Positions 5,044-53,708 of a stretch of 64,000 nt of DNA are shown in pieces. A program made the translations under genes and the position numbers. Numbering within the stretch: the first letter of the stretch is position 1; each line of letters starts with the position of its first letter. The stretch is from Archangium violaceum (lineage in GTDB: Bacteria; Myxococcota; Myxococcia; Myxococcales; Myxococcaceae). The stretch lies in assembly GCF_016859125.1 (NCBI RefSeq), contig NZ_CP069338.1, positions 9,055,501 through 9,119,500 on the forward strand, read 5' to 3'. The notes under the pieces are model-generated. The model did no database searches, was not told the DNA's origin, and was given only the letters and a program-made list of their open reading frames with translations.

Positions 5044-15192
<10,149 letters not shown>

Positions 15193-15207: not shown

Positions 15208-21773
<6,566 letters not shown>

Positions 21774-21777
<4 letters not shown>

Positions 21778-24700
21778 GTATCCAGGTGTTGCTGTCCGAG
21801 CTGGCCCGCCGTGGCATCCAGCTCTCCCTTGTCGAGGGGCAGATCGACGTACGCGCGCCCAAGGGCTCCCTCACGCCCGAGCTACGCAACGAGCTGGCCC
21901 GCAGCAAGGAGGAGCTCCTGGCCGTCATGCGCGCTCGCGCCGGGGGGGGCGAGCGCCAGCTCCCGCAGCTCGTTCCGGATCCGGCCCACCGTCATGAGCC
22001 CTTTCCGCTCACGGACATCCAGCAGGCCTATTGGATCGGCCGCAGCGCCGCGTACGACCTGGGCGACGTCTCCATCCACCTCTATACCGAGCTGGATGCC
22101 GTGGGGCTGGACCTGGAGCGGCTGGAGCACGCGTGGAACGCGGCCATCGCCCGACATGACATGCTGCGCGCCGTCATCCTGCCGGACGGACGCCAGCAGA
22201 TCCTCCCGGAGGTGCCCCGGTACTCCTTCCCCGTGAGGGATCTGCGTGGGCGGTCCGCGGCCGAGGTCGAGGCGGAGCTGGCGGAGGCCCGCGAGCGGTT
22301 GTCGCACCAGGTCTTCCAGGCGGACCAGTGGCCCACCTTCGAGGTGAGCGCCACGCGGATGGATGGCGATCGCACCCGCGTCCACGTGAGCGTGGATCTG
22401 CTCCACATCGACGGCGGAAGCCTGCTGCTGCTCAACCAGGATTGGATCCAGCTCTACCTGAATCCGGACAAGGCGCTGCCACCGCTGGAGCTGTCCTACC
22501 GCGACTACGTGCTGGCGGAGCAGGCGCTGCACGAGACGGAGCTGTACCGGCGCTCGATGGACTACTGGCGCGAGCGCGTGAAGGCGTTGCCGCCCGCCCC
22601 GGAACTGCCGCTGGCGAAGAAGCCGGGCTCGCACGGGAGCACCCGCTTCACCCGCCGCGATGGCCGCCTGTCCCCGGAGCTGTGGAGCCGGGTGATGGCC
22701 CGCTGCACCGCGCTCGGCCTCACTCCGTCCGCGGTGCTGATGGCCGCCTACGCGGAGGTGCTCGCCGCCTGGAGCCGCAACCCCCGGCTGACGCTCAACG
22801 TCACCCTCTTCAACCGTCTGCCGCTGCACCCGCAGGTGAACTCCCTGCTGGGTGACTTCACCTCGATGATCCTCCTCGGGGTGGATGGCTCGGTGTCGGA
22901 GCCGCTCGTCTCGCGCGTGCAGCGCCTGCAGGAGCAGCTCTGGACCGACCTGGAGCACCGCTACGTGAGCGGCGTGCAGGTGCTGCGCGAGCTGGCCCGC
23001 TACAACGGGACGGAGGCGGGTGGCATGCCCGTCGTCTTCACCAGCCTGCTCAGCCTGGGCGCGCAGGGGTACCGCCCGCCCGTCACCTCGTGGAAGGCTC
23101 TGGGCGAGGTGGCCTTCAGCCTGACGCAGACGCCGCAGGTGTGGCTGGACAACCAGGTCTTCGAGGAGGAGGGCGCGCTCGTCTACCACTGGGACGCGGT
23201 GGAGGCGCTCTTCCCGCCGGGGATGCTGGACGCCATGTTCGCCGCGTGGAACGAGCTGCTGCTGCGGCTGGCCACTCGCGAGGAGACCTGGAGCGAGCTC
23301 CGGGCCCAGCGCGTGCTGCCTCCGTCCGAGCAGCTCTCCGCCCGCGAGGCCCTCAACGCCACCTCCGCGCCCATTCCGGACAAGTCGCTGCCCCAGCTCC
23401 TCGCCGAGCAGGCCGCGCTGCGGCCCCAGCACCGCGCCGTGGTGTCCTCCTCGAAGGTGCTCACCTATGAGGAGCTCACCCGCCGGGCCTTCCACCTGGG
23501 CCAGCGTCTGGCCTCGCTGGGGGCTCGCACGGACGCGCCCGTGGCGGTGGTGATGGAGAAGGGCTGGGAGCAGGTGGTGGCCGTGTACGCCATCCACTCG
23601 GCGGGCGCGCCCTACCTGCCGGTGGATCCGGAGGTGCCTCCCGAGCGCCTGCGCTATCTGCTCCAGCAGGGCGAGGTGCGTCTGGTGCTCACGCAGCCCC
23701 AGCTGGACGCGCGGCTCTCGTGGCCCGAGGGCGTGCAGCGCCTGCTCGTGGAGGACGGCCCCGTTCCCGAGCCCGTGGCTCCGGCCGCGCTCCCGCGCTC
23801 CAACGACCTGGCCTATGTGCTCTACACCTCGGGCTCCACCGGTCTGCCCAAGGGCGTGATGATCGAGCACCGGAGCGTGATCAACCGCATCCTCGACATC
23901 AACGCGCGCTTCGCGGTGGGTCCGGAGGACAAGGCGCTCGCGCTCACGGCGCTGCACCACGACCTGTCCGTCTATGATCTCTTCGGTGCGCTGGCCGCGG
24001 GCGCCACGCTCGTCATCCCGGACGCCGACAAGGTGAAGGATCCGTCGCACCAGGCCGAGTGGATGGCTCGCGAGGGCATCACCTTCTGGAACTCGGTGCC
24101 GGCGTTCCTGGAGATGCTGGTGGAGCATCTGGAGCAGGCACCCGAGGCTCCGGCTCCGAGCGCGCTGCGCAAGGTGATCCTCGCGGGCGACTGGATTCCG
24201 GTGACGTTGCCGGAGCGGCTGCGCGCGAAGGTGCCCGAGGTGCGCATCATCGCCTCCGGTGGCCCCACGGAGACCACCGTCTGGGACATCTGGTACGAGG
24301 TGGGGACGGTGGATCCGTCGTGGCCGAGCATCCCCTACGGCAAGCCGCTGGCGAACGCGCGCTACCACGTCCTCAACGAGATGCTGGAGCCGTGCCCGGT
24401 GTGGGTGCCCGGACAGCTCTACATCGGCGGCGCGGGCCTGGCGCGTGGTTATTGGCGGGATGCGGAGAAGACGCGCGCCAGCTTCATCACCCACCCGCGC
24501 ACCGGTGAGCGTCTCTACAAGAGCGGAGACCTGGGCCGCTGGCTGCCGGACGGGAACATCGAGTTCCTCGGCCGCGTGGACTTCCAGGTGAAGATCAACG
24601 GCCAGCGCATCGAGCTGGGGGAGATCGAGACCACGCTCACCCAGCACCCGCGTGTGCGCAACGCCGTCGCGCTGGTGGCGGGCGGGGAGCAGGGCAAGAA

Positions 24701-25985
24701 GCACCTGGTGGCGTACGTCGTCGCCGACGAGCAGTCGAAGGAGCCGGAGAAGGCGGAGACGCCCGCCGCGCTCGAGCCGGCTCAGGGTGGAGGCATGGGC
24801 CCGAGCATGCTGACGGATCCCGTGCAGCGGCTCGAGTTCAAGCTGGCGAAGCGTGGTGTGCGGAAGGTGGAGCCGGGCGAGGAGGTTGTGGAACTGCCCG
24901 CGCCGGCCATCGATGAGTCGCTCTACGCGCTGCGCCGTAGCCACCGCGAGTTCCCGAAGCCGGTGACGATGGAGCAGCTCGGGCGGTTGTTGCAGAGCCT
25001 GGTGTCCATCGAGGCCGGAGGGCTGCCGAAGTACCGTTACCCGTCGGCGGGCGGCCTGTACCCGGTGCGGCTCTATGTGTCCGTGGAGCCGGGCCGCGTC
25101 GAGGGACTGCCGGGCGGCGTCTACTACCACCACCCGGCGCAGCATCGGCTGGTCCGCGTGTCCGGCGAGGCTCTGGGGCAGGAGATCCACGCGCCCGCGA
25201 ACAAGACGATGGCGGCCCAGGCCGCGTTCACCATCTTCCTGGTGGGCCACCTGGCGGCCATCGCCCCCATGTACGGCCCGATGGCGCGGGATTTCTGCCT
25301 GCTCGAGGCTGGCTACATGGGTCAGCTCCTCATGACCGAGTCGGCTTCGTGCGGCATCGGCCTGTGTGGCCTGGGATTGGTGGACGCCGAGGCCGTCCGG
25401 AACCGGCTCGGCCTGGGGGCGGACGACGTGCTGGTGCACTCGCTCGTCGGTGGTGGTGTGGAGGTGTCCAGCGTGCTGAAGCCTCCGGCGGAGGAAGGGG
25501 GCGGTGCGCCTCGCTCGCTCGCGGAGGAGTTGCGGGACTTCCTGCGCGCCCGGCTGCCCGGGCACATGGTGCCGCGGCTCGTGCTCAAGGACGCACTACC
25601 CCTCACGCCCAACGGGAAGGTGGATCGCAAGGCCCTGCTGGCCGAGGCGGTGGTCTCGACCGTCGAGGAGGTCTACGAGGCCCCCACGGGCAACCTCGAG
25701 GGCGTGCTGGCGGAGATCGTCCAGCAGGTGCTCGGGCTGGAGCAGGTGAGCGTCACACGGAACTTCTTCGACCTGGGCGCCAACTCGCGGCACGTGGTGC
25801 AGATCCACGGCAAGCTGAGGCAGGCACTCGGGATGGACATCAAGGTGACGGATGCCTTCCGCTATCCCTCCATCCGCGCGCTGGCGGCCCACCTGGGCCA
25901 GGCGCCCCAGGGGGAGTCGGTGACGCAGAAGGGGCGGAATCGCGCCGAGGCACGGCTCGCATCGCGCAGCCGCAGGCAGGGCTGA
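21774..25985 (+). CDS. NRPS module: Cy-A(Ox)-PCP, predicted cysteine-derived thiazole
   Basis: The start at 21774 gives an ATGA overlap with the upstream stop and 1403 residues. Residues 1-55 look like a TubC-type N-terminal docking domain. The Cy domain has FPLTDIQQAYWIGR from about 77 and the DxxxxD motif as D208-LLHI-D213, so it is a heterocyclization domain and not an ordinary condensation domain. The A domain has YTSGSTGLPKG at 684. Specificity positions readable by eye, D730, L731, Y734 and N773, agree with the start of the DLYN code of cysteine activators. A nitroreductase-like FMN oxidase (about 1045-1235, including YPSAGGLYPVRLY) is nested before motif A10 (NGKVDR, near 1280). PCP has Ser1338 in DLGANS. 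The module should add Cys, cyclize it to thiazoline and oxidize it to a 2,4-disubstituted thiazole. The cysteine call rests on a partial code plus Cy and Ox; Ser (oxazole) is less likely. Confidence 0.95.
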
Positions 25986-26022: not shown

Positions 26023-29000
26023 ATGAGCAGCAACATGGACATCGCCATCATCGGCATGGCGGGCCGCTTCCCCGGCGCGAAGGACCTGGACCAGTTCTGG
26101 CGCAACCTGCGCGACGGGGTGGAGTCCATCCGAAACTTCACCGACGAGGAGCTGGCCGCCTCGGGGGTGAACCCGTCGCTGCGCTCGAACCCCCGCTATG
26201 TGCGTGCCGCGCCGGTGCTCGAGGACGTGGACCGCTTCGACGCGGGCTTCTTCGGCTTCAACCCTCGCGAGGCCGAGCAGTTGGATCCGCAGCAGCGGCT
26301 GTTCCTGGAGTGCACCTGGGAGGCACTGGAGCGCGCGGGGTACGACCCGAGGCGCTTCCCGGGCTCCATCGGCCTCTATGCCGGCGCGAGCATCAGCACG
26401 TACCTGCTCGGCAACCTCGCCGGTGAGCGGGACCTGACGATGTCCGTGGAGAACCTCCAGACACTCCTCGGCAACGACAAGGACTACCTGGCCACCCAGG
26501 TGGCCTACAAGCTGGACCTCCGCGGCCCCGTGCTCACCGTGCAGACGGCGTGCTCCACGTCGCTCGTGGCCGTGCACCTGGCCTGTCAGGCACTGCTCGA
26601 TGGTGAGTGCGAGCTCGCGCTGGCCGGTGGCGTCACCGTCCGTCTGCCACACCACGCGGGGTACTTGTACCAGGAGGGTGGCCTCTTCTCCCCCGACGGG
26701 CACTGCCGGCCCTTCGATGCCGATGCGAAGGGCACGGTGTTCGGCAGTGGCGCGGGCGTGGTGGTGCTCAAGAAGTTGGAGGACGCTCTCGCCGATGGCG
26801 ATCGGATCCACGCCGTCATCAAGGGCTCGGCCATCAACAACGATGGCTCGCGCAAGGCGGGGTTCACCGCGCCGGGCATCGAGGGCCAGGTGGAGGTCAT
26901 CTCCGCGGCGCTCGGTGTGGCGCAGGTGGCGCCAGAGACGATCGGCTACATCGAGGCGCACGGTACGGGCACACCGCTGGGCGACCCGATCGAAGTGGAT
27001 GCGCTGTCCGAGGTCTTCGGGAACGCGACGAAGGCGAAGCGTTTCTGCGCGCTCGGGGCGGTGAAGGCCAGCATCGGTCACCTGGAGGCGGCGGCGGGCA
27101 TCGCGGGGCTCATCAAGACGGTGCTCGCGCTGGAGCACCGGCAGCTTCCCCCGAGCCTGAACTTCGCGAAGCCCAATCCGCAGATCGACTTCGACAACAG
27201 CCCCTTCTTCGTGAACACGCGGCTCGCGGAGTGGAAGCGGGGAGCCACGCCACGCCGGGCCGGAGTGAGCTCGTTCGGCATCGGCGGCACGAACGCGCAC
27301 GTGGTGCTGGAGGAGGCACCGGAGCGCAAGGAGGCCGTGCGGGCCCCTGCACAGGTGGCGCGAGAGGTGGTGCTGCCGCTGTCGGCGAGGAGTGAGGAAG
27401 CACTGAAGGCGCTGGCGGGAGAGTACGTGAAGGCGCTGGAGGAGCAGGGCGCGCCGGGAGTGGAGGAGGCGGGGTACACGGCGGCGGTGCGCAGGGCGCA
27501 CCACGAGCAGCGGCTGGCGGTGGTGGGGGCGAGCCGGGAGGAGTGGACGGAGAAGCTGCGAGCGTGGATGAGGGGAGAGGAGCGCCCCGGGCTGGCGGCG
27601 GGGAAGGTGGAGGAGGGGCGGAGGGGCAAGGTTGTGTTCGTGTTCCCGGGCCAGGGCTCGCAGTGGGAGGGAATGGGCCGGGAGTTGATGGGGAAGGAGC
27701 CGGTATTCCGGCAGGCGATAGAGGCGTGCGACGCGGCGTTGAAGCGGCACGTGAAGTGGAGCCTGAAGGAGGTGCTGGAGAAGGGGCAGGGGTTGGAGAA
27801 GGTGGAGGTCATCCAGCCGGCGCTGTTCGCGGTGGAGGTGGCGCTGGCGGCGATGTGGCGGAGCTGGGGAGTGGAGCCGGACGCGGTGGTGGGCCACAGC
27901 ATGGGAGAGGTGGCGGCGGCGCACGTGGCGGGGGCGTTGAGCCTGGAGGACGCGGCGCGGGTCATCTGCGAGCGAAGCCGACTGGTGGCGAGCACGAGAG
28001 GTAAGGGCGGGATGGCGGTGGTGGAGCTGGGAGCGGAGGAGGCGGAGAAGCGGATAGCGAGCAAGGGCGGGAGAGTCTCCGTCGCGGCGAGCAATGGGCC
28101 GCGGAGCACGGTGCTGGCGGGAGAGAAGGAAGCGTTGGGGGAGGTGCTGAAGGAGCTGGAGGGAGAGGGAAAGTTCTGCCGGTGGGTGAAGGTGGACTAC
28201 GCCTCGCACTCGGCGCAGATGGAGCCGCTGAAGCCGGAGTTGATGCGAGTGCTGGGCAGCGTGAGGCCCAAGGCTGGCAATGTGCCCATCTACTCGACGG
28301 TGAGCATGAAGGCGGGCAGTGGGGCCGACTTCGACGCGGGCTACTGGGTGAGGAACCTCCGGGAGCGGGTGCGCTTCGCGGAGACGGTGAAGAAGCTGAA
28401 GGAGGAAGGACACGGACTCTTCGTGGAGATGAGCCCGCACCCCATCCTCAAGAACGAGGTGGAGGGCAGCGCCGAGGGCGGTGTGATCGCACTGCCGTCG
28501 TTGCGTCGCGGAGAGCCGGAGCGAGCGACACTGCTGGATTCGCTGGGCGCGCTGTACGCGGCGGGCCACGAGGTGGACTGGACGAAGCAGCATCCCCAAG
28601 GCGGCCGGTTCGTGGCCCTGCCCACCTATCCCTGGCAGCGCCAGCGCTACTGGATCGAGCCGAGCGCCGAGCAGCCCCGGCGGATGGCCCGGCTCGCGAG
28701 TGGCGCGCATCCTCTCTTGCAGCATCGGCTGGAGCTCGCGGCGGATGCCCGCTCGTCGATCTGGGAGGGAGAGCTCGACGTCCGCGCGTTGCCGTACCTC
28801 GATGACCACAAGGTGGAGGGGACGGTGGTGGTTCCGGGCACCGCGTACCTGGAGATGGGGCTCGCGGCCGCCGCGGAGGTGCTCGGTGCCGAGGGACTCG
28901 TCCTGGAGAAGGTCGAGTTCAAGAAGGCGCTCGCGCTGCCCGAGGGGGCGGTACGCCTCCAGGTCTCCGTCTCCCGAGACGCGGATGACGTGGCCTCCTT

Positions 29001-32000
29001 CTCCGTGCACAGCCGGGGACAGGCCGACGGCAGCCCGTGGATCCTCCATGCCGAGGGCTCGCTGCGGCGTGGCCGGAGCGCCGAGGTGGTGGAGTTGATC
29101 GACTCCATCGTCACCCGCTGCGCCGAGGTCCCGGTGGGCGCGCACTACGAGGCCCTGCGCGCGCGTGGGCTCGAGTACGGCCCCTCCTTCCAGGGCATCA
29201 CGCGGCTGTGGCGGCGAGAGGGCGAGGCGCTGGCCCGCGTTCAGCTCTCCGCGACCCTCGCTCCGGAGGCGTCCTCCTACCGGGCCCACCCCGCGCTGCT
29301 GGACGCGGGTCTCCAGGTCCTCGCGGCAGCCGCGCCTCGGGGTGATTCGGGTCAGTCCTCGGACACGTTCCTCCCCGTCGGCATCGAGCGCCTGCGCCTC
29401 CATGCCTCGCCCTCGGGGCCGCTCTACAGCCACGCCACGCTGCGGGCCTCGCACTCCGCTGACGAGCTCGAGGGAGACATCCTCCTCCTCGACGAGCAGG
29501 GGCGCGCCGTCATCGAGATCCTCGGCCTCCGGGCCCGGCGGCTCGAGACCGGGAGCCAGGGCGATGACGTGGACTCCTGGTTCTACTCGCTCGCCTGGCG
29601 GCCCGTGTCGCGTTCGGCCGCCGCTGTGGCGGAAGCTCGCGGTGCGTGGTTGCTCCTGGCGGATCCCCACGGGCTCGCCGAGCGGCTGGCCCCGATGCTC
29701 GGGACCCGCGTGGTGCTGGTGCAGGCGGCGCCGGGGCTCGCTTCCGGGCATGAGCGGATCGGGCCGGAGCGCTACCGGTTGGATCCGGCGCGCAAGGAGT
29801 CGTTCCGTCAGCTCCTCGCCGAGGCCTTCGGGAACGAGGCACCGTCTGGCGTGGTGGACCTGTGGGCCCTCGGCACCGAGCTGCCCGAGGACGCGGGGCC
29901 CGAGGTGTTCCCGGCCGCCGAGGCGGTGGGGACGGTCGGTGCGCTGCACCTCGTCCAGACCGTGCTCCAGGCGGGCTGGCGTGATGCGCCGCGTGTGTGG
30001 CTGGTGACGCGCGGAGCCCAGGCGGTGCTGGAGTCCGAGCAGGCACCGCTGTCTCCCGTGCAGGCTCCGTTGTGGGGTCTGGCTCGCTCCGTGGTTCATG
30101 AGCACCCGGAGCTACGCTGCACCGCCGTGGATCTGGCACCGGTGCCCGACGCGCGTGACGCCGCCGTCCTGGCCGAGGAGCTCCGCTCCGCCGACAAGGA
30201 GGAGCAGGTCGCGCTCCGGGGCGAGGCGCGTTACGCCGCTCGGCTCGTGCGTGGCTCGGCGCAGGTCTCTTCCTCCTCCGAGGCCCTGCGTCCGGCGGAG
30301 GAGCGTCCGTACCGGTTGGAGGTGGCGAGCGCCGGCGTGCTGGACAGCCTCGTGCTGCGCGAGGTGCCGCGCCGCGAGCCCGGGCCCGGCGAGGTGGAGA
30401 TCCGGGTCCGAGCGGCCAGCCTCAACTTCCTGGACGTGCTGTCGGCGCTCGGGGCGCTCCCGGGTGCCGCGCCGGGTGAGTCTCCGCGGCTCGGTGGCGA
30501 GTGCGCGGGCGTGGTGGTGGCGGTGGGCGAGGGCGTCTCGGCTCTGAAGCCGGGGGACGAGGTCGTCGCCATCGCGAGTCACTGTTTCGGCACGCACGTG
30601 ACGACGCTCGCGGCCTTCGCGGTGCGCAAGCCGGCACACCTGTCCTTCGAGGAAGCCGCGGGGCTGCCCGTGGCCTTCATGACGGCGCACTACGCGCTCC
30701 ACCGTCTGGGTCACGTCGAGACTGGGGAGCGGGTACTCATCCACGCGGCCTCGGGTGGTACGGGTCTCGCCGCGGTGCGGATCGCCCAGCGGGCCGGCGC
30801 CGAGGTCTTCGCCACCGCGGGCAGCGAGGAGAAGCGCGCGTACCTGCGCTCGCTGGGCATCCGGCACGTGATGGACTCGCGCTCGCTGGCCTTCGCCGAG
30901 GAGATTCAAGGCCTCACGGGCGGCGCGGGCGTGGACGTGGTGCTCAACTCGCTCGCGGGCGCGGCCATCCAGAAGGGCCTGGAGTCACTCGCTCCCTACG
31001 GCCGCTTCCTGGAGATCGGCAAGCGCCCCATCTACGAGAACTCGCGGGTGGGGTTGCTGCCCTTCCGGCGCAACCTGGCCTACCACGCGATCGATCTGTC
31101 GCGGATGGCGATGGACCGCCCCGAGCGCTTCGCCGGGCTGCTGCGCGAGGTGATGGAGCGCTTCGAGCGGCGAGAGCTGGAGCCGCTGCCGGTGACGTGT
31201 CTGCCCATCACCGAGGCGGCGGAGGCCTTCCGGCGCATGGCGCAGGCGAAGCACATCGGCAAGCTGGTGCTGTCGCTGGACGTGCCGGACGTGCGGATCG
31301 CCCCGCCGGCCGAGGCCGTGCGGATCCGGCCGGATGCCACCTACCTCATCACCGGAGGCCTGGGTGGAGTGGGTTCGGTGCTGGCCCGGGCGCTGGTGGC
31401 CCGAGGCGCGAAGCACCTGGCCCTGCTGGGGCGCGGTGGCGCCACCACTCCGGCGGCGCGTGAGGCGGTGGCCTCGATGGAAGCGGCGGGAGCTCGGGTG
31501 CTCGTGCTGCGCGCGGACGTGGCGGATGCCGCGCAGCTCGGCGAGGCCCTGGCGCGTATCCGGGCGGAGCTGCCTCCCCTGCGGGGCATCCTCCATGGCG
31601 CGGTGGTGCTGGATGACGGCGTCGTGCTCCAGCAGACGCCGGAGCGCTTCCGCACGGCCCTGGCACCCAAGGTGGACGGCGCGTGGAACCTGCACCGGCT
31701 CACCCGGAACGAGCCGCTGGATTTCTTCGTGATGCTCTCCTCGGTGGTGTCGGTGCTGGGCTCGCCGGGCCAGGCCAACTACGCGGCGGCCAACTCCTTC
31801 CTGGACACGCTGATCTCCGAGCGGCGTGCGCGTGGGCTGCCGGGACAGAGCATCAACTGGGGCCCGTGGGCCGAGGTGGGCCTCGCCGCCGCGCAGGAGA
31901 ACCGCGGTGCCCGAGCGGCCTCGCACGGTATGTCCAGCATCCCACCCGAGGCCGGTGCCGAGGCCTTCATGCGTACCCTGCTCGGTGGGGCTCCGAGGCC

Positions 32001-32526
32001 GGTGGTGACGCCCTTCCACCTGCGGCGGTGGATCCAATCCTTCCCTCGCGCCGCCGCCTCGCCGCTGCTCGCCGAATTGGTGGCGGAGCAGGGTGCCTCC
32101 GCTGGAGCCCAGGCCGGCGCCTTCCGTGCGGCGCTGCTGGCCGCCGAGCCTCCCGCACGCCTGCCCCTGCTCGAGTCCCACCTGCGCGAGCAGCTCGCTC
32201 GCGTGCTCCGGTTGGATCCCTCGCGGATCGATCGGCAGACGCCGTTCAACACATTGGGTCTGGACTCCCTCATGGCGCTCGCGCTGCGCAACCGCCTGGA
32301 GGAGAGCCTGGGCCTCACCCTGTCCGTGACGGTCGTCTGGGGCTACCCGACGATCGCCGCGCTCGCGCCACATCTGGCGGCCCGCATGCAGGTGCCGCTC
32401 GCCCCGGCCGCCGAGGCCGCGCCCCAGGAGCAGAAGGACCGGGGCGCCCTCGACGAGGCGATGCGCGAGGTCTCCACACTCTCCGAGGACGATGCCCTCC
32501 AGGCGCTGCTCGCCGGTCAGGGCTGA
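26023..32526 (+). CDS. Type I PKS module E: KS-AT(mmal)-DH-ER-KR-ACP, accepts the thiazolyl chain
   Basis: The protein has 2167 residues and starts 37 nt after the NRPS. It has almost no N-terminal linker before the KS. The KS active site is TACSTS (Cys177), and its sequence departs from the other KS domains in the window, as expected of a KS following an NRPS module. AT has Ser626 and YASH at 726 (methylmalonyl), nearly identical to the module D AT. DH starts near 896 with His929 in a full HxxxGxxxxP motif and Asp1094. ER has LNFLDVL near 1467 and GGTGLAAV near 1577. KR has TGGLGGVG near 1777, LDD and Tyr1920. ACP has Ser2082. The predicted step turns the thiazole-4-carbonyl into CH2 and adds a CH(CH3) unit. 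The tail (LSEDDALQALLAGQG) resembles a docking helix. Confidence 0.96.
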   Translation: MSSNMDIAIIGMAGRFPGAKDLDQFWRNLRDGVESIRNFTDEELAASGVNPSLRSNPRYVRAAPVLEDVDRFDAGFFGFNPREAEQLDPQQRLFLECTWEALERAGYDPRRFPGSIGLYAGASISTYLLGNLAGERDLTMSVENLQTLLGNDKDYLATQVAYKLDLRGPVLTVQTACSTSLVAVHLACQALLDGECELALAGGVTVRLPHHAGYLYQEGGLFSPDGHCRPFDADAKGTVFGSGAGVVVLKKLEDALADGDRIHAVIKGSAINNDGSRKAGFTAPGIEGQVEVISAALGVAQVAPETIGYIEAHGTGTPLGDPIEVDALSEVFGNATKAKRFCALGAVKASIGHLEAAAGIAGLIKTVLALEHRQLPPSLNFAKPNPQIDFDNSPFFVNTRLAEWKRGATPRRAGVSSFGIGGTNAHVVLEEAPERKEAVRAPAQVAREVVLPLSARSEEALKALAGEYVKALEEQGAPGVEEAGYTAAVRRAHHEQRLAVVGASREEWTEKLRAWMRGEERPGLAAGKVEEGRRGKVVFVFPGQGSQWEGMGRELMGKEPVFRQAIEACDAALKRHVKWSLKEVLEKGQGLEKVEVIQPALFAVEVALAAMWRSWGVEPDAVVGHSMGEVAAAHVAGALSLEDAARVICERSRLVASTRGKGGMAVVELGAEEAEKRIASKGGRVSVAASNGPRSTVLAGEKEALGEVLKELEGEGKFCRWVKVDYASHSAQMEPLKPELMRVLGSVRPKAGNVPIYSTVSMKAGSGADFDAGYWVRNLRERVRFAETVKKLKEEGHGLFVEMSPHPILKNEVEGSAEGGVIALPSLRRGEPERATLLDSLGALYAAGHEVDWTKQHPQGGRFVALPTYPWQRQRYWIEPSAEQPRRMARLASGAHPLLQHRLELAADARSSIWEGELDVRALPYLDDHKVEGTVVVPGTAYLEMGLAAAAEVLGAEGLVLEKVEFKKALALPEGAVRLQVSVSRDADDVASFSVHSRGQADGSPWILHAEGSLRRGRSAEVVELIDSIVTRCAEVPVGAHYEALRARGLEYGPSFQGITRLWRREGEALARVQLSATLAPEASSYRAHPALLDAGLQVLAAAAPRGDSGQSSDTFLPVGIERLRLHASPSGPLYSHATLRASHSADELEGDILLLDEQGRAVIEILGLRARRLETGSQGDDVDSWFYSLAWRPVSRSAAAVAEARGAWLLLADPHGLAERLAPMLGTRVVLVQAAPGLASGHERIGPERYRLDPARKESFRQLLAEAFGNEAPSGVVDLWALGTELPEDAGPEVFPAAEAVGTVGALHLVQTVLQAGWRDAPRVWLVTRGAQAVLESEQAPLSPVQAPLWGLARSVVHEHPELRCTAVDLAPVPDARDAAVLAEELRSADKEEQVALRGEARYAARLVRGSAQVSSSSEALRPAEERPYRLEVASAGVLDSLVLREVPRREPGPGEVEIRVRAASLNFLDVLSALGALPGAAPGESPRLGGECAGVVVAVGEGVSALKPGDEVVAIASHCFGTHVTTLAAFAVRKPAHLSFEEAAGLPVAFMTAHYALHRLGHVETGERVLIHAASGGTGLAAVRIAQRAGAEVFATAGSEEKRAYLRSLGIRHVMDSRSLAFAEEIQGLTGGAGVDVVLNSLAGAAIQKGLESLAPYGRFLEIGKRPIYENSRVGLLPFRRNLAYHAIDLSRMAMDRPERFAGLLREVMERFERRELEPLPVTCLPITEAAEAFRRMAQAKHIGKLVLSLDVPDVRIAPPAEAVRIRPDATYLITGGLGGVGSVLARALVARGAKHLALLGRGGATTPAAREAVASMEAAGARVLVLRADVADAAQLGEALARIRAELPPLRGILHGAVVLDDGVVLQQTPERFRTALAPKVDGAWNLHRLTRNEPLDFFVMLSSVVSVLGSPGQANYAAANSFLDTLISERRARGLPGQSINWGPWAEVGLAAAQENRGARAASHGMSSIPPEAGAEAFMRTLLGGAPRPVVTPFHLRRWIQSFPRAAASPLLAELVAEQGASAGAQAGAFRAALLAAEPPARLPLLESHLREQLARVLRLDPSRIDRQTPFNTLGLDSLMALALRNRLEESLGLTLSVTVVWGYPTIAALAPHLAARMQVPLAPAAEAAPQEQKDRGALDEAMREVSTLSEDDALQALLAGQG
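27292..28654 (+). repeat. Methylmalonyl AT cassette copy 2 (near-identical to 16573-17929)
   Basis: This is the second copy of the module D/E methylmalonyl AT cassette. It has 6 extra nucleotides near 27345 and a divergent patch near 28303-28365 relative to copy 1. Downstream of the LPTYPWQRQR linker motif the two proteins diverge at once, which marks the right boundary of the shared segment. Confidence 0.9.
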
Positions 32527-32535
32527 AGCCGACCC

Positions 32536-37188
<4,653 letters not shown>

Positions 37189-37194
37189 TCCGCG

Positions 37195-45866
<8,672 letters not shown>

Positions 45867-45870
<4 letters not shown>

Positions 45871-48800
45871 GTGGGGCTCCGGAAGGGACGGATCGCCAGG
45901 CGGTCCTCAAGCAGGCGCTGCATGAGATCAAGCAGATGCGCGCCAGGGTGGAGGCGTCCGAGCGGGCGAAGCGCGAGCCCATCGCCATCCTGGGCATGGC
46001 GTGCCGTTTCCCGGGAGCGGACAGCCCGGAGGCCTTCTGGCGGCTGCTGCGGGACGGGGTGGACGCGACGAGCGAGGTGCCGCCGGAGCGTTGGGACGTG
46101 GACGCCTGGTACGATCCGGATCCGAACGCACCGGGCAAGGCATACACGCGGCGGGGCGGCTTCCTGCGGGACGTGGATCGCTTCGACGCTCGCTTCTTCA
46201 ACATCAACCCGCGCGAGGCGGTGAGCATCGATCCGCAGCATCGCCTCTTCTGGGAGCAGAGCTGGGAGGCGCTGGAGCGTGCGGGGCGGGCACCGGGCTC
46301 GTTATCGGGGAGCCGCGCCGGGGTGTTCCTGGGCATCACCAACAACGACTACGGCCAGCTGCTGGCCACGTTGCGCGATCCGGCGGAGCAGGACGGGTAC
46401 GTGATGACGGGCAACGCTCTCAACTTCGCGCCCGGCCGGCTCTCGTACATGCTGGGCCTGCAGGGGCCGAGCGTGGCGGTGGACACGGCGTGCTCGTCAT
46501 CGCTGGTGGCGCTGCACCTGGCCTGTCAGAGCCTGCGGTCGGGCGAGGTGGACCTGGCCATCGTCGGCGGGGTGAACCTCATCCTCTCGCCGGGCGGCAC
46601 GGTGCTGATGTCCAAGGCGCGGGCGCTGGCGCCGGACGGGCGGTGCAAGACCTTCGATGCGTCGGCGGACGGCTATGCCCGGGGCGAGGGCTGCGGCGTG
46701 GTGGTGCTCGCGCGGCTGTCGGACGCGGTGGCCGCGAAGGATCCGATCCTCGCCGTCATCCGGGGCTCGGCGGTGAACCAGGACGGGCCGAGCAGCGGGC
46801 CCACGGTGCCCAACGGTCAGGCGCAGCAGGCCGTCATCCGCGAGGCACTCGCCCGGGCCGGGGTGAAGCCCACGGAGGTGGACTACGTGGAGGCGCACGG
46901 CACGGGCACGTCACTGGGCGACCCGATCGAGCTGCGCGCGCTGGGCGAGGTGCTGGGCGAGGGCCGGGCCGCGGGTGACAGGTTCGTGCTCGGCTCGGTG
47001 AAGACGAACGTGGGGCACGCCGAGGCGGCGGCGGGCATGGCGGGGCTCCTCAAGGTGGTGCTCTCGCTGCGGCACGGCCAGATTCCCCCGCACCTGCACT
47101 TCCGAGTGCCGAACCCGCACGTGCCCTGGGAGTCGATTCCGGCGGAGGTGCGCACCTCGCTGTCTGCGTGGACGCGCCGGGGCGAGCGGCGCGTCGCGGG
47201 GGTGAGCTCGTTCGGTGCGAGCGGGACGAATGCCCACGTGGTGCTGTCGGAGCCGCCGCCCACGGAGGCCACCGCGACGGAGCCCGAGCCACGGTGGGCG
47301 GTGCTGCCGTTGTCTGCGCGCCGCTGGGAGGCCCTGCTGGAGCTGGCGGGGCGCTTCGAGGAGCACCTGGCCAACAACCCCTCGACCTCACTGGGAGAGG
47401 TGTGCGCCACGGCGGCCACGGGGCGGACGCACTTCTCGCACCGGCTGGCGGTGGTGGCCGACTCGGTGTCCGAGGTTCGCTCGCATCTGGCGGCGTTCGT
47501 GGCGGGCGAGCCGGCCGCGGGCCTGGTGGCCGGGCGCACGCGGGGCGAGACGCCTCCGAAGGTGGCTTTCCTCTTCACGGGGCAGGGCAGCCAGTACGTG
47601 GGCATGGGGCGCGGCCTGTACGAGTCCCAGCCCGTGTTCCGCCAGACGCTGGACCGGTGCGACGCACTGCTGCGTCCGTTGATGGAGCGGCCGCTGCTCG
47701 AGGTGCTCTTCGCGAAGGAGGGGGTTGCCGAGGCCGAGCTGTTGACCGAGACGCGGTACACGCAGCCGGCGCTGTTCGCGCTGGAGTACGCGCTGGCGGA
47801 GCTGTGGCGCTCGTGGGGCGTGGTGCCGCAGGCGGTGTTGGGACACAGCGTGGGCGAGCTGGTGGCCGCGTGCGTGGCGGGGGTGTTCAGCCTGGAGGAC
47901 GGGCTGAAGCTGATCGCCGAGCGCGCGAGGTTGATGCACTCGCTGCCGAGGGACGGGGAGATGGCGGCCGTCTTCGCCGGGGAGGCCGAGGTGGCCGAGT
48001 CGCTGCGGCTCCACGAGGGACGGGTGTCGCTCGCGGCCATCAACGGACCGACGGAGACGGTCATCTCCGGTGAGCGGCAGGCAGTGCTGGCGGTGGTGGA
48101 GTCCTTCCAGGGGAAGGGCATCAAGACGCGGGCGTTGCAGGTGTCGCACGCATTCCACTCGCCGTTGATGGAGTCGATCCTCGAGCCCTTCGAGCGGGTG
48201 GCCGAGAAGGTGACGTACGCGGCGCCGAAGCTCACCGTCATCTCCAACGTGACGGGCCGGCCGGCGACGGCGGCGGAGCTGACGGGAGCGGCGTACTGGA
48301 AGCGCCACGTGCGGGAGCCGGTGCGCTTCCTGGCGGGAGTCCAGAGCCTGCACGAGGCGGGCATCGGCCTGATGGTGGAGCTCGGCCCCAAGCCGACGCT
48401 GTTGGGGATGGCGAAGCGCTGCGTCCCCGAGGACGCGGGAGCGGGGTGGATTCCCTCACTGCGCGAGGGCCAGAACGAGACGCGCACGGTGCTCGAGGCG
48501 GTGTCGGAGCTGTACACGCGAGGGGTGGAGGTGGATTGGAAGGGGCTGGTGGGGACGAGCCGCCGCCGGGTGACGCTGCCCACGTATCCCTTCCAACGCG
48601 AGCGTTACTGGGTCGAGCCCTCGGCGCGAGCCGCTGGTGCCACGCCGATGCCAGCCATGAGCGCGAGGGGAGGCCATCCGCTGATTGGCCATCGGGTGCG
48701 CTCGCCGGTGACGGTGGCCTTCGAGACGCAGCTCGACGCGGGGCGGCTCGCGGTGCTGAGAGATCACCGGGTGCACGGACACATCGTGGTGTCGGGAGTG

Positions 48801-50744
48801 GTGCACCTGTCCATGGCGATGGCGGCGATGGCGGAGGTGTCGGGGGCCTCGCCGGGAGTGCACGCGGAGGGCATCACGTTCTCCGACGCGCTGCTGCTCT
48901 CGGAGGGCGAGCCGCGCACGGTGCAGCTCGTGTTGCAGGACAAGGGGCAAGGGGGCACGGCCTTCCAGCTCTTCAGCCTCGAAGCGGGGCAGGGTGGGGG
49001 CGAGCCCTCGTGGAAGCTGCACACCTCGGGCACCTTCCAGGGGGAGGCTCGCGAGGGGGCGTTCGAGCGAGCGCGGGTGGAGGGCCCGCTGGACGCGGTG
49101 CGCGCGAGGTGCGGCGAGGAGATGACGGGCGAGGCCTTCTACGCCACGCATTGGAAGGTGGGCGAGCATGAGATCGGCCCGAGCTTCCGGCTCATCCGGA
49201 GGCTGTGGCGCCGGGACGGCGAGGCACTGGCGGAGATCTCGGTGCCGGAGATGCCCGAGCTGAGCGGAGAGCGGACCGCGCTCCCGGTGGGCCCGCTGTT
49301 GGCGGAGGCGTGCGTGGTGGAGGCCTGTGGGCAGCTCGTGAAGGTGGCGCTGCCCGCGGGAGTAGGGGAGCGGGGCGTGTTCATCGGCGTGGGCGTGGAT
49401 CGGCACGATCAGCGGCACGGAGGAGCAGGGCGGACGCGCTGGTGCCACGTGCGCTTGCACCCGTCGGAGGATCCGGACTCCTTGCGAGCGGACCTGCGCC
49501 TGTTGGACGAGGTGGGAGCGGTGGTGGCCGTTTCGGAGGGCATGCATCTGCGGCGTGTGAGCGCCCAGGTGTTGCGCCGGGCGGTGGAGGGTCCGAGCAG
49601 GGCAACCACGGTGTCCCGGCGCCAGGAACCGGTCGAGCTGCTGGAGCGGATCCGCTCGGCGAGCGCGGCCGAGAAGCGTGGGCACCTCGAATCCTATCTG
49701 TTGCACCAGGCCGCCTCGGTGTCTGGACTGGCGGCGTCAGACATTGATCCCGAGGCGTCGCTGAGAGAGCTGGGATTGGACTCGCTGGGAGCGGTGGATC
49801 TCAAGGGGTGGATCCAGAAGGATCTGGGGGTGGACGTGCCGGTGGCGGACCTGCTGCAGGGCCCGAGCCCGCGCCATCTGGCGGAACAGCTCGCGCAATC
49901 CCTGACACCGATTGCCGCCCCGGTGACGGAGAGTCCGAGGCGCACGCCGCCCCCCGGGGATCCGATTCCGCCGGAGGAGCTCTCCCGGTGGTTCCGCCGG
50001 AAGCCCGGAGCGACGGGGGCGCGAGTGCGCCTGTTCTGCTTCCCATTCGGGGGAGCGGGGGCGCTGGTGTACCGCGGCTGGGCGGAGAAGCTCCCCCACT
50101 GGCTCGAGGTCATCCCGGTCCAACTTCCGGGCCGGGAGGAGCGGCTGAAGGAGCGAGCCTTCGAGCGCTTCCCGGCGTTGCTGCCGGAGCTGGCGCGGGT
50201 GATGCGGCCGTTGCTGGACGAGCCCTTCGCGCTCTTCGGCGCGAGCATGGGAGGAATCATCGCCTTCGAGCTGGCGAGGTGGCTGCGGGCGGAGTGGGGG
50301 CTAGAGCCGGCGCACCTGTTCATCGCGGCCTCGTCCGAGCCACAGGTGCCGAACGCGCGGCTCGACGAGATGCTGGGGGCGGTGGTGGCGGGAGGCTCGA
50401 AGGTGGACGTGGGCCTGCTGCGCCGCTTCAACCTGGTGCCCGAGGCGCTGTTGGCCTACCCGGAGATGGTGCAGATGCTGCTGCCCACGATGCAGGCGGA
50501 CTTCCGGCTGCTGCGAAGCCACGTCTACCGGAACGAAGCGCCGTTCGACTGCCCCATCTCGATCTTCGGAGGCACGAGGGACACGCTGGTGGGCCGCGAG
50601 CACCTCGAAGCATGGGGCCAGCACACGCGGGGAGTGTTCAAGCTCCGGCTCTTCGAGGGGGAGCACCTGTTCGTGAAGAACGACCCCGGACCGGTGCAGG
50701 CCGCCATCGCCGAGGATCTGTCGGAGCGCTTCCGGGAGGGCTGA
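45867..50744 (+). CDS. Type I PKS terminal module I: KS-AT(mal)-degenerate DH-ACP-TE
   Basis: The protein has 1625 residues and its ATGA start overlaps the upstream stop. KS has Cys209. AT has Ser661 and HAFH at 761 (malonyl). A DH-like domain runs from about 937: His967 is kept, but the motif proline is Ser ([10 protein letters not shown]) and the second motif reads GPLLAEAC, with Glu1147 in place of Asp and no preceding His. No KR follows, so this DH would have no beta-hydroxyl substrate made in its own module. ACP has Ser1306. The C-terminal TE has [10 protein letters not shown] near 1391, Ser1460 in GASMGG, Asp1572 and His1600. Its look is closer to stand-alone type II thioesterases (PGREER, SMGG) than to classical macrolide TEs. 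It should release the chain as an acid, lactone or pyrone. This is the last gene of the assembly line. Confidence 0.95.
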
Positions 50745-50851: not shown

Positions 50852-52054
50852 ATGAAGCTTCTCTCCCGGGCGGTCCTGAACATCAGTGCGGCCGTCATGA
50901 CCGTGGGGCTGGTTGCCCCAGCCCTCGCTGCACCACCGGCGCCAACCGATCTGACCTCGTGCCGTACGTCCGACAACCGCGTGACGCTGGACTGGTCCGA
51001 CGTCGTCGACGCCACCTCCTACGAAGTCTGGGAACCCTCGAATACCCCGGACCGGCCGGTGGCCACCGTCACCGCGTCCACCCGCACCTCCGGGGTGCTG
51101 CCCAACGACGACTACACCTACTACGTCAAGGCCGTGGACGCCTCGGGAGCCTCGGGCTTCTCGAACGCGGCCCCCATCAACATCCCCAATGGCCAGCTGT
51201 GCGGCAGCAATCCCCCGCCGTCCACGAACATCGACACCGCCTTCGACGATGCGTGGGCGACGCGTAACCACGAGACGCTGCGCTCGTTCTTCGAGGCCCA
51301 CGTCGGCACGTTCACGCCGGGGCCGACCGTCTCCTCGCCGGGGACGGTGACCACGCAGGCCCAGGCGGACGCGCTCTCGGGCCGCACGGTCATCGGCAAC
51401 GTCACCTTCGCCTGCTCCAGCGGGTGCACCGTGTCCAACGCCGTCTTCCGTGACGTCATCGTCGCGCAGAGCGGAACAGTGACCTTCAACAACGTCATCA
51501 ATGACCCGCAGCGCGCCACCGACGCCGTCGGATTCTTCGAGGTCCGGGCAGCAGCGACGGTCAACCTGAACCGCTTCGAAATCCGCAACAGTCAGGACGG
51601 CATCCGCTCCAGCGGAACCGTCAACGCCCGCTACCTGTACATCCACAGCGTGAGCCCCTACGTGGAGACGGTTGGAAACGGGCATCAGGATGGTTTCCAG
51701 CAGTACGGCGGCTCGGTCGATTGCCAGAGGTGCTTCATCGACTACCGGAACGCCGTGACGTCCGCCATTCTCGTGAAGCCGGACGCCACCACCATCACGA
51801 AGACGCGATGGAACTACACCTTCTTCCAGGGGGGCGGCTACACCATCCACCTGCACGACAGTGGCACCAAGACCGTCCAGGCCGCCGGCCTCGATTTCAG
51901 CAACGTGCTGGTGGCGCGCGGCTACCGGACGGGCCTCGCCTCCATCTGGGATATCAACGACGCCGCGCGTGCCAAGGCCGACGACTACGTCATGAACGTC
52001 AGCACCGTGGACGGCGGCGGCACCCGGCGCCTCGTGGACGGCGTCAAGATTTAG
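50852..52054 (+). CDS. Secreted FN3 + right-handed beta-helix protein
   Basis: The start is supported by GGAGG five bases upstream. A signal peptide covers about residues 1-27 (hydrophobic core VMTVGLVAPALA). Residues 28-115 resemble a fibronectin type III domain (TDLTSCRTSDNRVTLDW to YTYYVKAVDASG). Residues from about 150 to 400 show the repeating turns of a parallel beta-helix, of the kind found in polysaccharide lyases and adhesins (ATVNLNRFEIRNSQDGIRSS, GGGYTIHLHDSG). It probably acts outside the cell on polysaccharide, but no catalytic residues can be assigned. A TATAGT -10-like box at 50793-50798 suggests its own promoter. It lies 107 nt after the PKS stop and is probably not part of the pathway. 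A hairpin terminator follows. Confidence 0.85.
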   Translation: MKLLSRAVLNISAAVMTVGLVAPALAAPPAPTDLTSCRTSDNRVTLDWSDVVDATSYEVWEPSNTPDRPVATVTASTRTSGVLPNDDYTYYVKAVDASGASGFSNAAPINIPNGQLCGSNPPPSTNIDTAFDDAWATRNHETLRSFFEAHVGTFTPGPTVSSPGTVTTQAQADALSGRTVIGNVTFACSSGCTVSNAVFRDVIVAQSGTVTFNNVINDPQRATDAVGFFEVRAAATVNLNRFEIRNSQDGIRSSGTVNARYLYIHSVSPYVETVGNGHQDGFQQYGGSVDCQRCFIDYRNAVTSAILVKPDATTITKTRWNYTFFQGGGYTIHLHDSGTKTVQAAGLDFSNVLVARGYRTGLASIWDINDAARAKADDYVMNVSTVDGGGTRRLVDGVKI

Positions 52055-52097
52055 TGCAGTCCAGGAGCGTTCCTCCCGCCCCATCTTCTCTGTGATG

Positions 52098-52135
52098 ACA
52101 CCGGCCAGCTCCAAGGTTTGGGAGCTGGCCTGTGT
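52098..52135 (+). terminator. Hairpin terminator after the beta-helix gene
   Basis: A perfect 10-bp stem (GGCCAGCTCC at 52103-52112, GGAGCTGGCC at 52121-52130) with an 8-nt loop is extended by ACAC/GTGT across one mismatch. It lies about 44 nt after the stop. No T-run follows on either strand, so termination may depend on the stem alone. Confidence 0.55.
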
Positions 52136-52138
52136 CGA

Positions 52139-52390
52139 TCAGCCATCAGGTAGGACCCCGGCTCGTATCGTCCCTGGCAGCGCGTGCCCGCTGTCGAAGG
52201 CCTCGCGGGCCTTGTGCTTGCTGGGTGCGGCGTCGAACAGCGCCTGGTTGTTCTCCGCCGTGGAGAACGTGTCCTGCGCCGCCGTCAACAGCAGCCAGGA
52301 TTGCTGGATGCCGCCCATCCGATTCACGGGCGCGGCATCTCCCAACACGGGATCCACGTGCGGTGGCACCATGGTCACCAGGAGCGTGAC
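52139..52390 (-). pseudogene. Remnant of an alpha/beta-hydrolase C-terminus
   Basis: On the minus strand a stretch reads like the end of an alpha/beta-hydrolase: WLLLTAAQDTFSTAENN, then LFDAAPSKHKAR, then FDSGHALP, matching the usual late Asp, substrate-loop and catalytic His region. No upstream nucleophile elbow or plausible start is visible before the neighbouring protease gene, so only about 80 residues survive. The exact family is not clear. The same bases can be read as a 138-residue ORF on the plus strand, which shows no recognizable protein pattern. Confidence 0.4.
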
Positions 52391-52577
52391 GCGCGCGCTC
52401 CTCGAGCTGGCGCTGGTGGAGCGGCTGGCCCGGCGGTTCTCCTGGGGTATCTCCATCGCCCCCCTGGAGCCCCGTGGCATGCGGGTGCGGCTGACCTGGA
52501 GACGCTGAGGCCCATCGCCGAAGTGGGCACGGTGCCGGGTGCCCACGGTCCGTGGGCACCCGAGCGGGCCCGGGTGG

Positions 52578-53708
52578 CTATCCGCCGACGACAAGGGTGA
52601 GGCCGTAGGCGTTCAGGATCTCCTTGACCGGCTGGAAGTAGGTGGTGCCGCCCGAGGTGCAGTTGCCCGAGCCGCCGGACGTCACCCCTTGCGCCTGGGT
52701 GCCGGAGAGCCACGGGCCGCCCGAGTCGCCAATCCCCGCGCAGACATTGGTCCGGGTGAGACCGGTGACGACTCCCTCGGCGTAGTGGATGGTGGCGTTC
52801 AGGCTCTGAATGGTTCCACACCTCCAGCCCGTCGAGGGGCTGGGGCGGCAGACCGAGGCGCCGACCGGGGCGACCGTGGAGCCGGTGACCGCGACGGTGC
52901 CGCCACCGGAGTTGTTGATCACCCCTCGGGGAGTCCAGTTGGAGTTGACCTTGACCCAGGCATGGTCATTGCCTGGGAAGGACGAGCCCTGGAAGACGCC
53001 CTGGTCGACCAGGTTGTACCCCTTGGTGGGGGTGCCAACGGTGCCGCAGTGGCCCGCCGTGATGAATCCACCGACGACGGAGAAGCCGATCAAGCAGCGT
53101 CCGCCATTCGGCGTAAAGAAGGGATCCGCCCCCCGCACGTCGTAAAAGGGGCGAGGCGCGTCCTCTGAAGGCACGACCTTGATCGCGCCGTCCTTGTCCC
53201 CAGCCAGAGCGATGAAAGGGTCTATCCGCTGTTTCGCCATGCCAGAGCTCTCGGCAAGCACCACGACGCTGTTGGTGGTGACGTCGATATACCAGGCATG
53301 GATGGACTTGCTGGCGCTCCGCGCATTGCGGTCCAGCGCCGCCTTCACCTGCTCCAGTTGTTCCAGGCTCCGGGAGACCCGCTGGGGTTCGGCCCCGGCG
53401 CTGCGCACGAGGTCGGCGTCGGCTTCATGGGTGACGCCGACGATGAGCTGGGTGCCGTCCTCGTTCAGCCAGGCGCCGCCAAAGCGGTTGCCCAGCTCGG
53501 CCTTCAGCGTGCTCTCGATGTGTGGGGCCGCCGCCTCGAATGCCAGCCGGCGCTGGACCTGCGCTTCCGTGAGGCCGAAGTCGTGCTGCATCTGTGAAAT
53601 GAGCTCCGGCGAGGCGGAAGCCGCCTTGGGAGCCGCCAATCCCTGGGTCGTAGCCAGTCCGGCAAGCACTGCGGTCACGGTGGAGAGCGTGTGAAGCTTT
53701 CGAGGCAT
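52578..53708 (-). CDS. Secreted S1-family serine protease with propeptide (alpha-lytic/streptogrisin type)
   Basis: The protein has 376 residues. A signal peptide covers about 1-26, followed by a propeptide of about 165 residues (LSQMQHDFGLTEAQ-like start, then GGAWLNEDGTQLIVGVT), typical of alpha-lytic-type zymogens. The catalytic triad is His220 (FITAGHCG), Asp248 (GNDHAW) and Ser329 (GDSGGPW). Paired cysteines fit the family (205/221, 287/297, 323/350). The start has a GGAAGGA ribosome site upstream. It is probably an exported, self-processing degradative protease of the kind myxobacteria use in predation. It is transcribed toward the PKS operon and ends near the hydrolase remnant. Confidence 0.93.
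   Translation of the reverse strand: MPRKLHTLSTVTAVLAGLATTQGLAAPKAASASPELISQMQHDFGLTEAQVQRRLAFEAAAPHIESTLKAELGNRFGGAWLNEDGTQLIVGVTHEADADLVRSAGAEPQRVSRSLEQLEQVKAALDRNARSASKSIHAWYIDVTTNSVVVLAESSGMAKQRIDPFIALAGDKDGAIKVVPSEDAPRPFYDVRGADPFFTPNGGRCLIGFSVVGGFITAGHCGTVGTPTKGYNLVDQGVFQGSSFPGNDHAWVKVNSNWTPRGVINNSGGGTVAVTGSTVAPVGASVCRPSPSTGWRCGTIQSLNATIHYAEGVVTGLTRTNVCAGIGDSGGPWLSGTQAQGVTSGGSGNCTSGGTTYFQPVKEILNAYGLTLVVGG

Follow-up and report, generated by a model that had tools for sequence, protein, structure and literature searches.

Benzene rings are seldom built by modular polyketide synthases (PKSs). The ajudazol line, the closest described relative of the system studied here, has two tailoring P450 genes. 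Its cluster in Chondromyces crocatus is catalogued as BGC0000954 (AM946600.1), and partly ajudazol-like clusters are reported in Myxococcus (PMC12211065). In excerpts of a 2023 paper (PMC10127220), AjuH is described as having a dehydratase (DH) without a ketoreductase (KR). The marinomycin terminal module, KS-AT-DH-TE, also with a DH and no KR, is there called highly related to AjuH, the marinomycin line being otherwise mostly trans-AT. For marinomycin, the same paper guesses that C2 and C7 condense and that the DH then catalyses a dehydration, so both the architecture and a version of the ring-closure idea are already in print. A further line, for icumazole/noricumazole in Sorangium, comes from Xie 2023 (cited in PMC12800573). 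Here we analyse a 64,000-nucleotide stretch of Archangium violaceum (the window; positions 9055501-9119500 of a 12.68 Mb one-contig genome, G000), in which a line of PKS and nonribosomal peptide synthetase (NRPS) genes ends in a KR-less module with an odd dehydratase domain, named DH*. This is a known kind of terminal module; what we add is a family view, that is, a coherent clade with two natural states of the catalytic place and a decaying penultimate DH adjoining it.

The terminal module and its probable ajudazol kinship

The terminal gene is a forward-strand open reading frame (ORF) of 1625 aa encoding one PKS module, KS-AT-DH-ACP-TE (ketosynthase, acyltransferase, DH, acyl carrier protein and thioesterase). 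Pfam models for KS, AT, PKS_DH_N plus PS-DH, PP-binding and Thioesterase matched it, and the same domain scan found neither KR nor enoylreductase (ER) in the ORF. The AT motifs are presumably of the malonyl type.

45867..50744, + strand: terminal PKS gene, KS-AT-DH*-ACP-TE, AjuH-like (ORF list, Pfam; best G202 match 56% over 1639 aa)
45975..47102, + strand: terminal KS, motifs DTACSSS and EAHGTGT (Pfam, motif reading)
47568..48530, + strand: terminal AT, motifs GHSVGE/HAFH (Pfam, motif reading)
48660..49601, + strand: DH* (Pfam; double-hotdog model; nearest solved fold the CurJ DH)
48765..48767, + strand: DH* His at the catalytic place (alignment; His in 5/11 modules, Phe in 6/11)
48792..48794, + strand: DH* Ser at the Pro place (alignment; 11/11 modules)
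49305..49307, + strand: DH* Glu E235, a candidate for the Asp place alongside E240 (10/11 modules; Thr in G295)
49320..49322, + strand: DH* Glu E240, the other candidate for the Asp place (11/11 modules)
49695..49889, + strand: terminal ACP, motif LGLDS (Pfam)
50028..50681, + strand: TE domain, type-II-like by sequence (Pfam, TE tree, match to solved TEs)

The reference for comparison was genome G202, which we presume to be Chondromyces crocatus Cm c5, the ajudazol producer. Each of the line's nine PKS/NRPS ORFs is matched in G202, at 55-63% identity in the best-aligned stretch. Eight of them find full-length best matches in the same order, and the domain order is the same from the second to the terminal gene. 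The counterpart of the first gene lies behind the terminal gene in G202 (61% over 2379 aa plus 53% over 662). An extra PKS ORF, G202_61686, had no counterpart that we saw in the window line. Two P450 genes adjoin the terminal gene in G202; the window line has one upstream, 60% identical to one of them, in a scan that took in 10 of the 20 upstream non-PKS ORFs. The presumed AjuH locus shares the terminal KS-AT-DH-ACP-TE order, with Ser for Pro, Glu for Asp and His kept, while the catalytic His of the penultimate DH is replaced by Tyr in G202 and by Ser in the window. With the module order, azole-type NRPS module included, and a terminal DH and TE without KR all agreeing with this presumed reference, the window module is very probably the ring-forming end of an ajudazol-type line. 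The same terminal module occurs in a Sorangium locus (L050, in G195) and in G277; that these are icumazole lines is a guess.

A scan with domains from the window located the remainder of the line, whose first PKS/NRPS gene is at 9026.0 kb. That gene lies 18 kb from the second, with unrelated-looking genes between, and was assigned to the line because of its G202 counterpart. The modules that precede the terminal one, and an internal DH discussed below, are as follows.

40348..45870, + strand: penultimate module, KS-AT-DH-KR-ACP (Pfam)
43018..43887, + strand: penultimate DH, Ser at the catalytic His (KESAVRG), Glu at the Asp place (alignments)
44608..45174, + strand: penultimate KR with intact NADPH and Ser-Tyr motifs and the Trp signature of A-type KRs (Pfam, motif reading)
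37195..40347, + strand: third-last module, KS-AT-ACP, no KR, predicted to leave a C7 ketone (Pfam)
32536..37188, + strand: fourth-last module, KS-AT-KR-ACP, predicted to leave a C9 hydroxyl (Pfam)
26023..32526, + strand: KS-AT-DH-ER-KR-ACP module (Pfam)
21756..25985, + strand: NRPS module TubC_N-condensation-A-nitroreductase-PCP (A, adenylation; PCP, peptidyl carrier protein), azole-type (Pfam; 63% to the G202 counterpart)
12301..13221, + strand: internal DH, Ser for Pro and YP for HP, His and Asp intact (alignment)

The last four modules should leave a C9 hydroxyl, a C7 ketone, a C5 hydroxyl (or alkene) and a C3 ketone. Judged by module order, such oxidation states would be those of a 6-alkylsalicylate closed by the C9 hydroxyl, that is, an isochromanone. 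The order KR, none, DH-KR, none plus TE recurs in G000, G202, G277, G079, G035, G036, G038, G278 and G279. The third-last module is without KR in nine systems; the G195 contig ends before that point, and in G295 this module has a KR with a broken NADPH motif (GELRAPT). In the 10 systems with the motif string read, all but G295, the penultimate KR has the Trp of A-type KRs. As a general rule, the hydroxyl set by such KRs gives a cis alkene on dehydration, and a cis C4=C5 bond would place C2 near C7.

Several observations concern the lines themselves. The first PKS gene (L009:8533-18339, i.e. G000:C1:9026033-9035839) contains a DH-like stretch in which Arg fills the His column and Glu the Asp place, and it is adjoined by a phosphopantetheinyl transferase gene and a separate TE gene. 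In the six clusters whose terminal DH has Phe at the catalytic place (L070:12122-14908 in G079; also G035, G036, G038, G278 and G279), the KR-less module has a fragmentary or undetected AT, so malonate may need to be loaded from elsewhere; the third-last module reads KS-ACP in G278 and G279. In L097 (G295), an in-frame KS follows the terminal TE, with its active-site Cys reading Phe (DTAFSSS). The genes 3' of the terminal gene (window 50852-53708), encoding a weak fn3 protein and an alpha-lytic protease prodomain protein, look unrelated to the line.

The DH* clade: residues, fold and conservation

The original prediction, made from the window alone, held that the terminal DH is degenerate (Ser for Pro and Glu for Asp, with the first-motif His kept and the second-motif His lost) and that its module lacks a KR; alignment bore out the former and Pfam the latter. 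A Glu is present in the second motif, where Asp and the His of 'HP' are both gone. Single-sequence phmmer and hmmsearch put E235 at the Asp place, and MAFFT, hhalign and the family profile put E240 there; under either alignment, the place holds a Glu.

We compared 11 terminal modules (G000, G079, G038, G035, G036, G195, G202, G277, G278, G279 and G295), gathered from several searches. Among 96 genomes of the window's own family, 65 had matches at 1e-40, mostly to the TE alone; G079, G038, G035 and G036 match the entire DH-ACP-TE at 41-43%, and G074, G078 and G034 match from DH to TE at 31%. At phylum level, 195 genomes gave no additional match at 1e-70. A scan of named genomes found one full-length relative in 15 loci, L050 of Sorangium cellulosum So0008-312. 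In the family of L050 (108 genomes), nine match at 1e-50, with the DH covered in six (G195, G202, G277, G278, G279 and G295). None of the 78 plasmid records matched at 1e-30 covers 80% of the query; one of 394 sampled actinomycete genomes matched at 1e-50, in the TE only, and the marinomycin sequence was not reached; and one of 282 genomes sampled from the phylum of G195 matched at 1e-60, namely G195.

Ser for Pro and the absence of Asp and of the HP His are common to 11/11 terminal modules, as is Glu at the MAFFT Asp column. These uniform changes are accompanied by one variable place, the catalytic one, with five His and six Phe (G035, G036, G038, G079, G278 and G279). Elsewhere in these clusters, outside the last two modules, His and Asp are both present in 16 of 17 complete DHs, and the lone exception is the DH-like stretch in the first gene of the window line; one further DH, from G036, was left out because the retrieved sequence stops within it. 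A full His-Asp dyad is found in 0/11 penultimate and 0/11 terminal DHs. The terminal DHs form one clade (100/99), recovered in 200/200 bootstrap trees. By these counts, the DH* residue pattern recurs beyond chance and is no one-off. We rejected the change from Pro to Ser as a sign of a dead DH, because Ser occurs with intact His and Asp in the internal DH at 12301-13221, in its G202 counterpart and in one DH of G295.

A DH* model built from a 17-row alignment of window and named-locus sequences, the structure prediction that had been suggested as a check, gave a confident double-hotdog fold (mean predicted local distance difference test, pLDDT, 88.9; predicted template modelling score, pTM, 0.89). 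Its top structural match is the DH of CurJ (Z 31.9, root-mean-square deviation (rmsd) 2.8, 285 aligned). The fold is shared with the product template (PT) domain of PksA (Z 29.4), AmbDH3 (26.6), SorPS9 (26.4) and the PT of AviM (24.9). The family profile search likewise returned the DHs of CurJ, CurF and CurK first, with CurJ at 1e-45 and the PksA PT at just 0.04, and a search of viral structures gave nothing at E 0.001 or lower. With profile and fold matches both led by CurJ-type DHs, DH* belongs, on this evidence, to the modular DH lineage, whatever its reaction. It has the double-hotdog fold of canonical modular dehydratases and lacks their His-Asp dyad and HxxxGxxxxP motif.

Between G000 and G202, the terminal DHs are 59% identical, compared with 44% for the penultimate DHs, 58, 74, 54 and 50% for the other DHs (74% being the internal DH at 12301-13221, the highest of the six compared), 53% for the terminal AT and 51% for the TE. 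In 17 of the 21 pairs among seven representatives, the terminal DHs are closer than the penultimate ones; the two tie in G277-G278, and the terminal DHs are less alike in G195-G278, G295-G079 and G295-G278. Across the four close Phe-type genomes, the terminal DH has a ratio of nonsynonymous to synonymous substitution rates (omega) of 0.303 (0.218-0.397) and the penultimate DH one of 0.201 (0.141-0.279); the terminal AT has 0.182, the TE 0.205 and a further DH 0.176. The Phe-type terminal DH thus appears perhaps somewhat relaxed yet clearly under purifying selection.

G074, G078 and G034 (L019, L022 and L033), which were kept out of the 11-module counts, form a second group of KR-less KS-AT-DH-ACP-TE ends. 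Their DHs read DNHG.AH.G in the first motif and FHPG[VI]LDACAQ in the second, with the Asp kept (LDACAQ), and score 126, 116 and 110 bits with an ordinary-DH profile vs 66, 53 and 59 with the terminal profile. They disprove the idea that a KR-less DH-ACP-TE end is unique to the DH* clade.

The penultimate dehydratase and the terminal thioesterase

The changes in the penultimate DH are diverse, with His replaced by Ser, Tyr or Ile and Asp by Glu or Thr. Its His is lost in G000 (Ser), G202 (Tyr) and G295 (Ile), all of which keep the terminal His; the six Phe-type terminal modules are all paired with a penultimate His, and G195 and G277 keep both. Ten penultimate DHs form a clade (99/97); beside it is a fork shared by the penultimate DH of G295 and the first-gene stretch. 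Within that clade, the domains of G000 (Ser) and G195 (His) are sisters at 96/90, and both join G202 (Tyr) at 81/68; by parsimony, this placement implies either repeated loss of the penultimate His or a loss followed by its recovery. Since the penultimate DH of the window has Ser for His, a C5 hydroxyl should arrive at the terminal module. We considered whether the complementary His losses prove a hand-over between the two domains and discarded the idea, as the 11 rows amount to just six lineages and the pattern is not significant.

The TE carries the motifs GASMGG and LPGREER. Its triad, Ser548, Asp660 and His688 (numbering of the 713-aa piece 48603-50741), is the same in 11/11 modules, and in the motif list the residue before the nucleophile Ser is T, A, S or V in 11/11 terminal TEs. 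The best solved sequence relative is RifR (3fla, 2.9e-38), with the tautomycetin PKS TE last of 15; we take most TEs among these closest solved relatives to be type II. A tree was built from 61 of the 64 TEs found, after removal of the hydrolase-like rows L115-L117. There, the 11 terminal TEs cluster with a single other fused TE (L082). Their side of the tree contains 33/33 stand-alone TEs (frames up to 900 aa, six of them 520-673 aa), and a 100/99 branch parts it from eight fused TEs taken as NRPS type; the tree program issued a long-branch warning. In all, nine further fused TEs, with L082 counted, lie on the stand-alone side. This phylogeny of the kind proposed in the original prediction, together with the RifR match, agrees with the type-II look noted there. 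The affinity is one of sequence: RifR is a separate enzyme, whereas the window TE is the C-terminal domain of a 1625-aa synthase. An editing role, which had been read from the same motifs, is not indicated, because this TE is fused to the final synthase of the line and the neighbours of the first PKS gene include a separate TE gene. An isolated 277-base piece 8 Mb away (L157:7229-7505, i.e. G000:C1:903229-903505) has 93.5% DNA identity to the middle of the TE (window 50157-50433), with no other window match at 1e-10 in the 15 kb around it.

Proposed ring formation and rival explanations

The reading we favour, to which we give about an even chance of being right, is that the terminal DH* takes part in ring formation and that the TE then lactonises, with the product, the order of steps and the domain that closes the C-C bond as we infer them here. 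The terminal ACP would receive a chain with a C9 hydroxyl (KR), a C7 ketone (no KR), a C5 hydroxyl (KR, and a penultimate DH without His) and a C3 ketone (no KR). DH* would act as an aromatase/cyclase-like domain, its His, with Glu replacing Asp, removing a proton in the C2/C4 region. Water would leave from C5, beta to the C3 ketone, and/or C2 would attack C7, and the six-membered ring would aromatise. The fused TE would take the acyl group, and the C9 hydroxyl would close the lactone, giving an 8-hydroxyisochroman-1-one. The precedent is the PT of AviM, a DH-fold C2-C7 aldol cyclase that needs its His and little of its Asp: H949A and H949F abolish C2-C7 closure, a lactone being made instead, while D1104A retains most activity (excerpts of PMC9135731). 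By that precedent, a His with an altered Asp, as in the window, is compatible with a cyclase, and Phe is not. DH* shares with the AviM PT (7vwk; Z 24.9, rmsd 3.0, 251 aligned) the fold, the His and the expected C2-C7 closure. However, AviM is an iterative KS-AT-PT-ACP synthase, whereas DH* is part of one module in a modular line. The higher identity of DH* than of the penultimate DH between G000 and G202 (59% vs 44%) counts in support of the reading, as do the single clade of terminal DHs, the recurring module order and the retention of the terminal His in G000, G202 and G295, where the penultimate one is lost.

Pyran synthases are degenerate DHs of trans-AT lines that form cyclic ethers. The one among the fold matches is SorPS9 (Z 26.4), while the modules read in the window line carry their own AT. 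The original prediction had proposed ring closure by the DH through oxa-Michael addition or as a pyrone or hemiketal. A role in ring closure stands as the favoured reading, and the ring types named do not, since the module order predicts a C-C closed isochromanone; with C3 and C7 ketones and a C9 hydroxyl, oxa-Michael closure by a pyran synthase is a far-fetched option. A KR acting in trans is not needed either, because the phenol wants the C3 ketone.

Several points weigh against a ring-forming DH*. Phe replaces the catalytic His in 6/11 modules although H949F abolishes cyclisation in AviM, so either the ring made by these six is a different one or ring closure does not use the His as its base. 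The AviM PT was not among the 43 profile matches up to E 10. The non-overlap of His losses (three penultimate, one terminal, in six lineages) has a chance of 0.5. Because the second group exists, the KR-less DH-ACP-TE architecture alone is no proof of chemistry.

If DH* does not form the ring, it may be a delayed dehydratase that removes the C5 hydroxyl of the penultimate KR one extension late, the ring closing without it. This account, which overlaps with the favoured one and which we consider somewhat unlikely, lends support, as a possibility, to the earlier suggestion that the DH acts on the previous module's hydroxyl. It fits the loss of the penultimate His in G000, G202 and G295, all with a terminal His, and the presence of that His in all systems with a Phe-type terminal domain. 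However, these are just six independent lineages, G195 and G277 keep both His, and the dehydratase would have to work with Glu for Asp. In addition, penultimate DHs with His may be dead too, having Glu or Thr for Asp and no full dyad in any of the 11.

Alternatively, the TE may drive ring closure, with DH* merely positioning the chain or aiding folding; cyclisation and aromatisation would then occur at or near the TE or spontaneously before the TE lactonises. The TE triad is kept in 11/11 modules vs the DH* His in 5/11, and the T, A, S or V before the nucleophile Ser is likewise present throughout. The title of Buntin 2010 credits an unusual thioesterase with promoting ring formation, which would favour the TE over DH*. 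We regard a TE-driven closure as rather unlikely, given that DH* is better conserved than the TE between G000 and G202 (59 vs 51%) and that even the Phe-type DH* is under purifying selection (omega 0.303, 0.218-0.397).

Returning to a ring-forming DH*, a bolder and unlikely version would make its clade a dedicated aromatase/cyclase family, the modular counterpart of the product template, in which Ser and Glu rather than a His-Asp dyad shape the reaction. Phe members would either need no His base for ring closure or release an oxygen-closed lactone like AviM H949F, one residue deciding between carbocycle and lactone.

That DH* is a relic kept as a linker, as the original prediction also allowed, is improbable: the motif changes, Phe for His in six modules and a Phe-type omega that is the highest of the five bootstrapped domains (with overlapping intervals) would suit it, but Ser and Glu are fixed across the clade, the fold is confident, the Phe-type domain is under purifying selection, and the window domain, rejected as a relic because of such selection and its conservation, is as similar to its presumed ajudazol counterpart (59%) as three intact DHs (58, 54 and 50%; a fourth, 74%) are to theirs, above the penultimate DH (44%), the AT (53%) and the TE (51%).

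If a single end-of-line domain with a DH fold does close and aromatise a ring, it would be a portable part for engineering. The 11 modules, with the same fold and line position and with His in five and Phe in six, offer a ready comparison for the ring-closing question.

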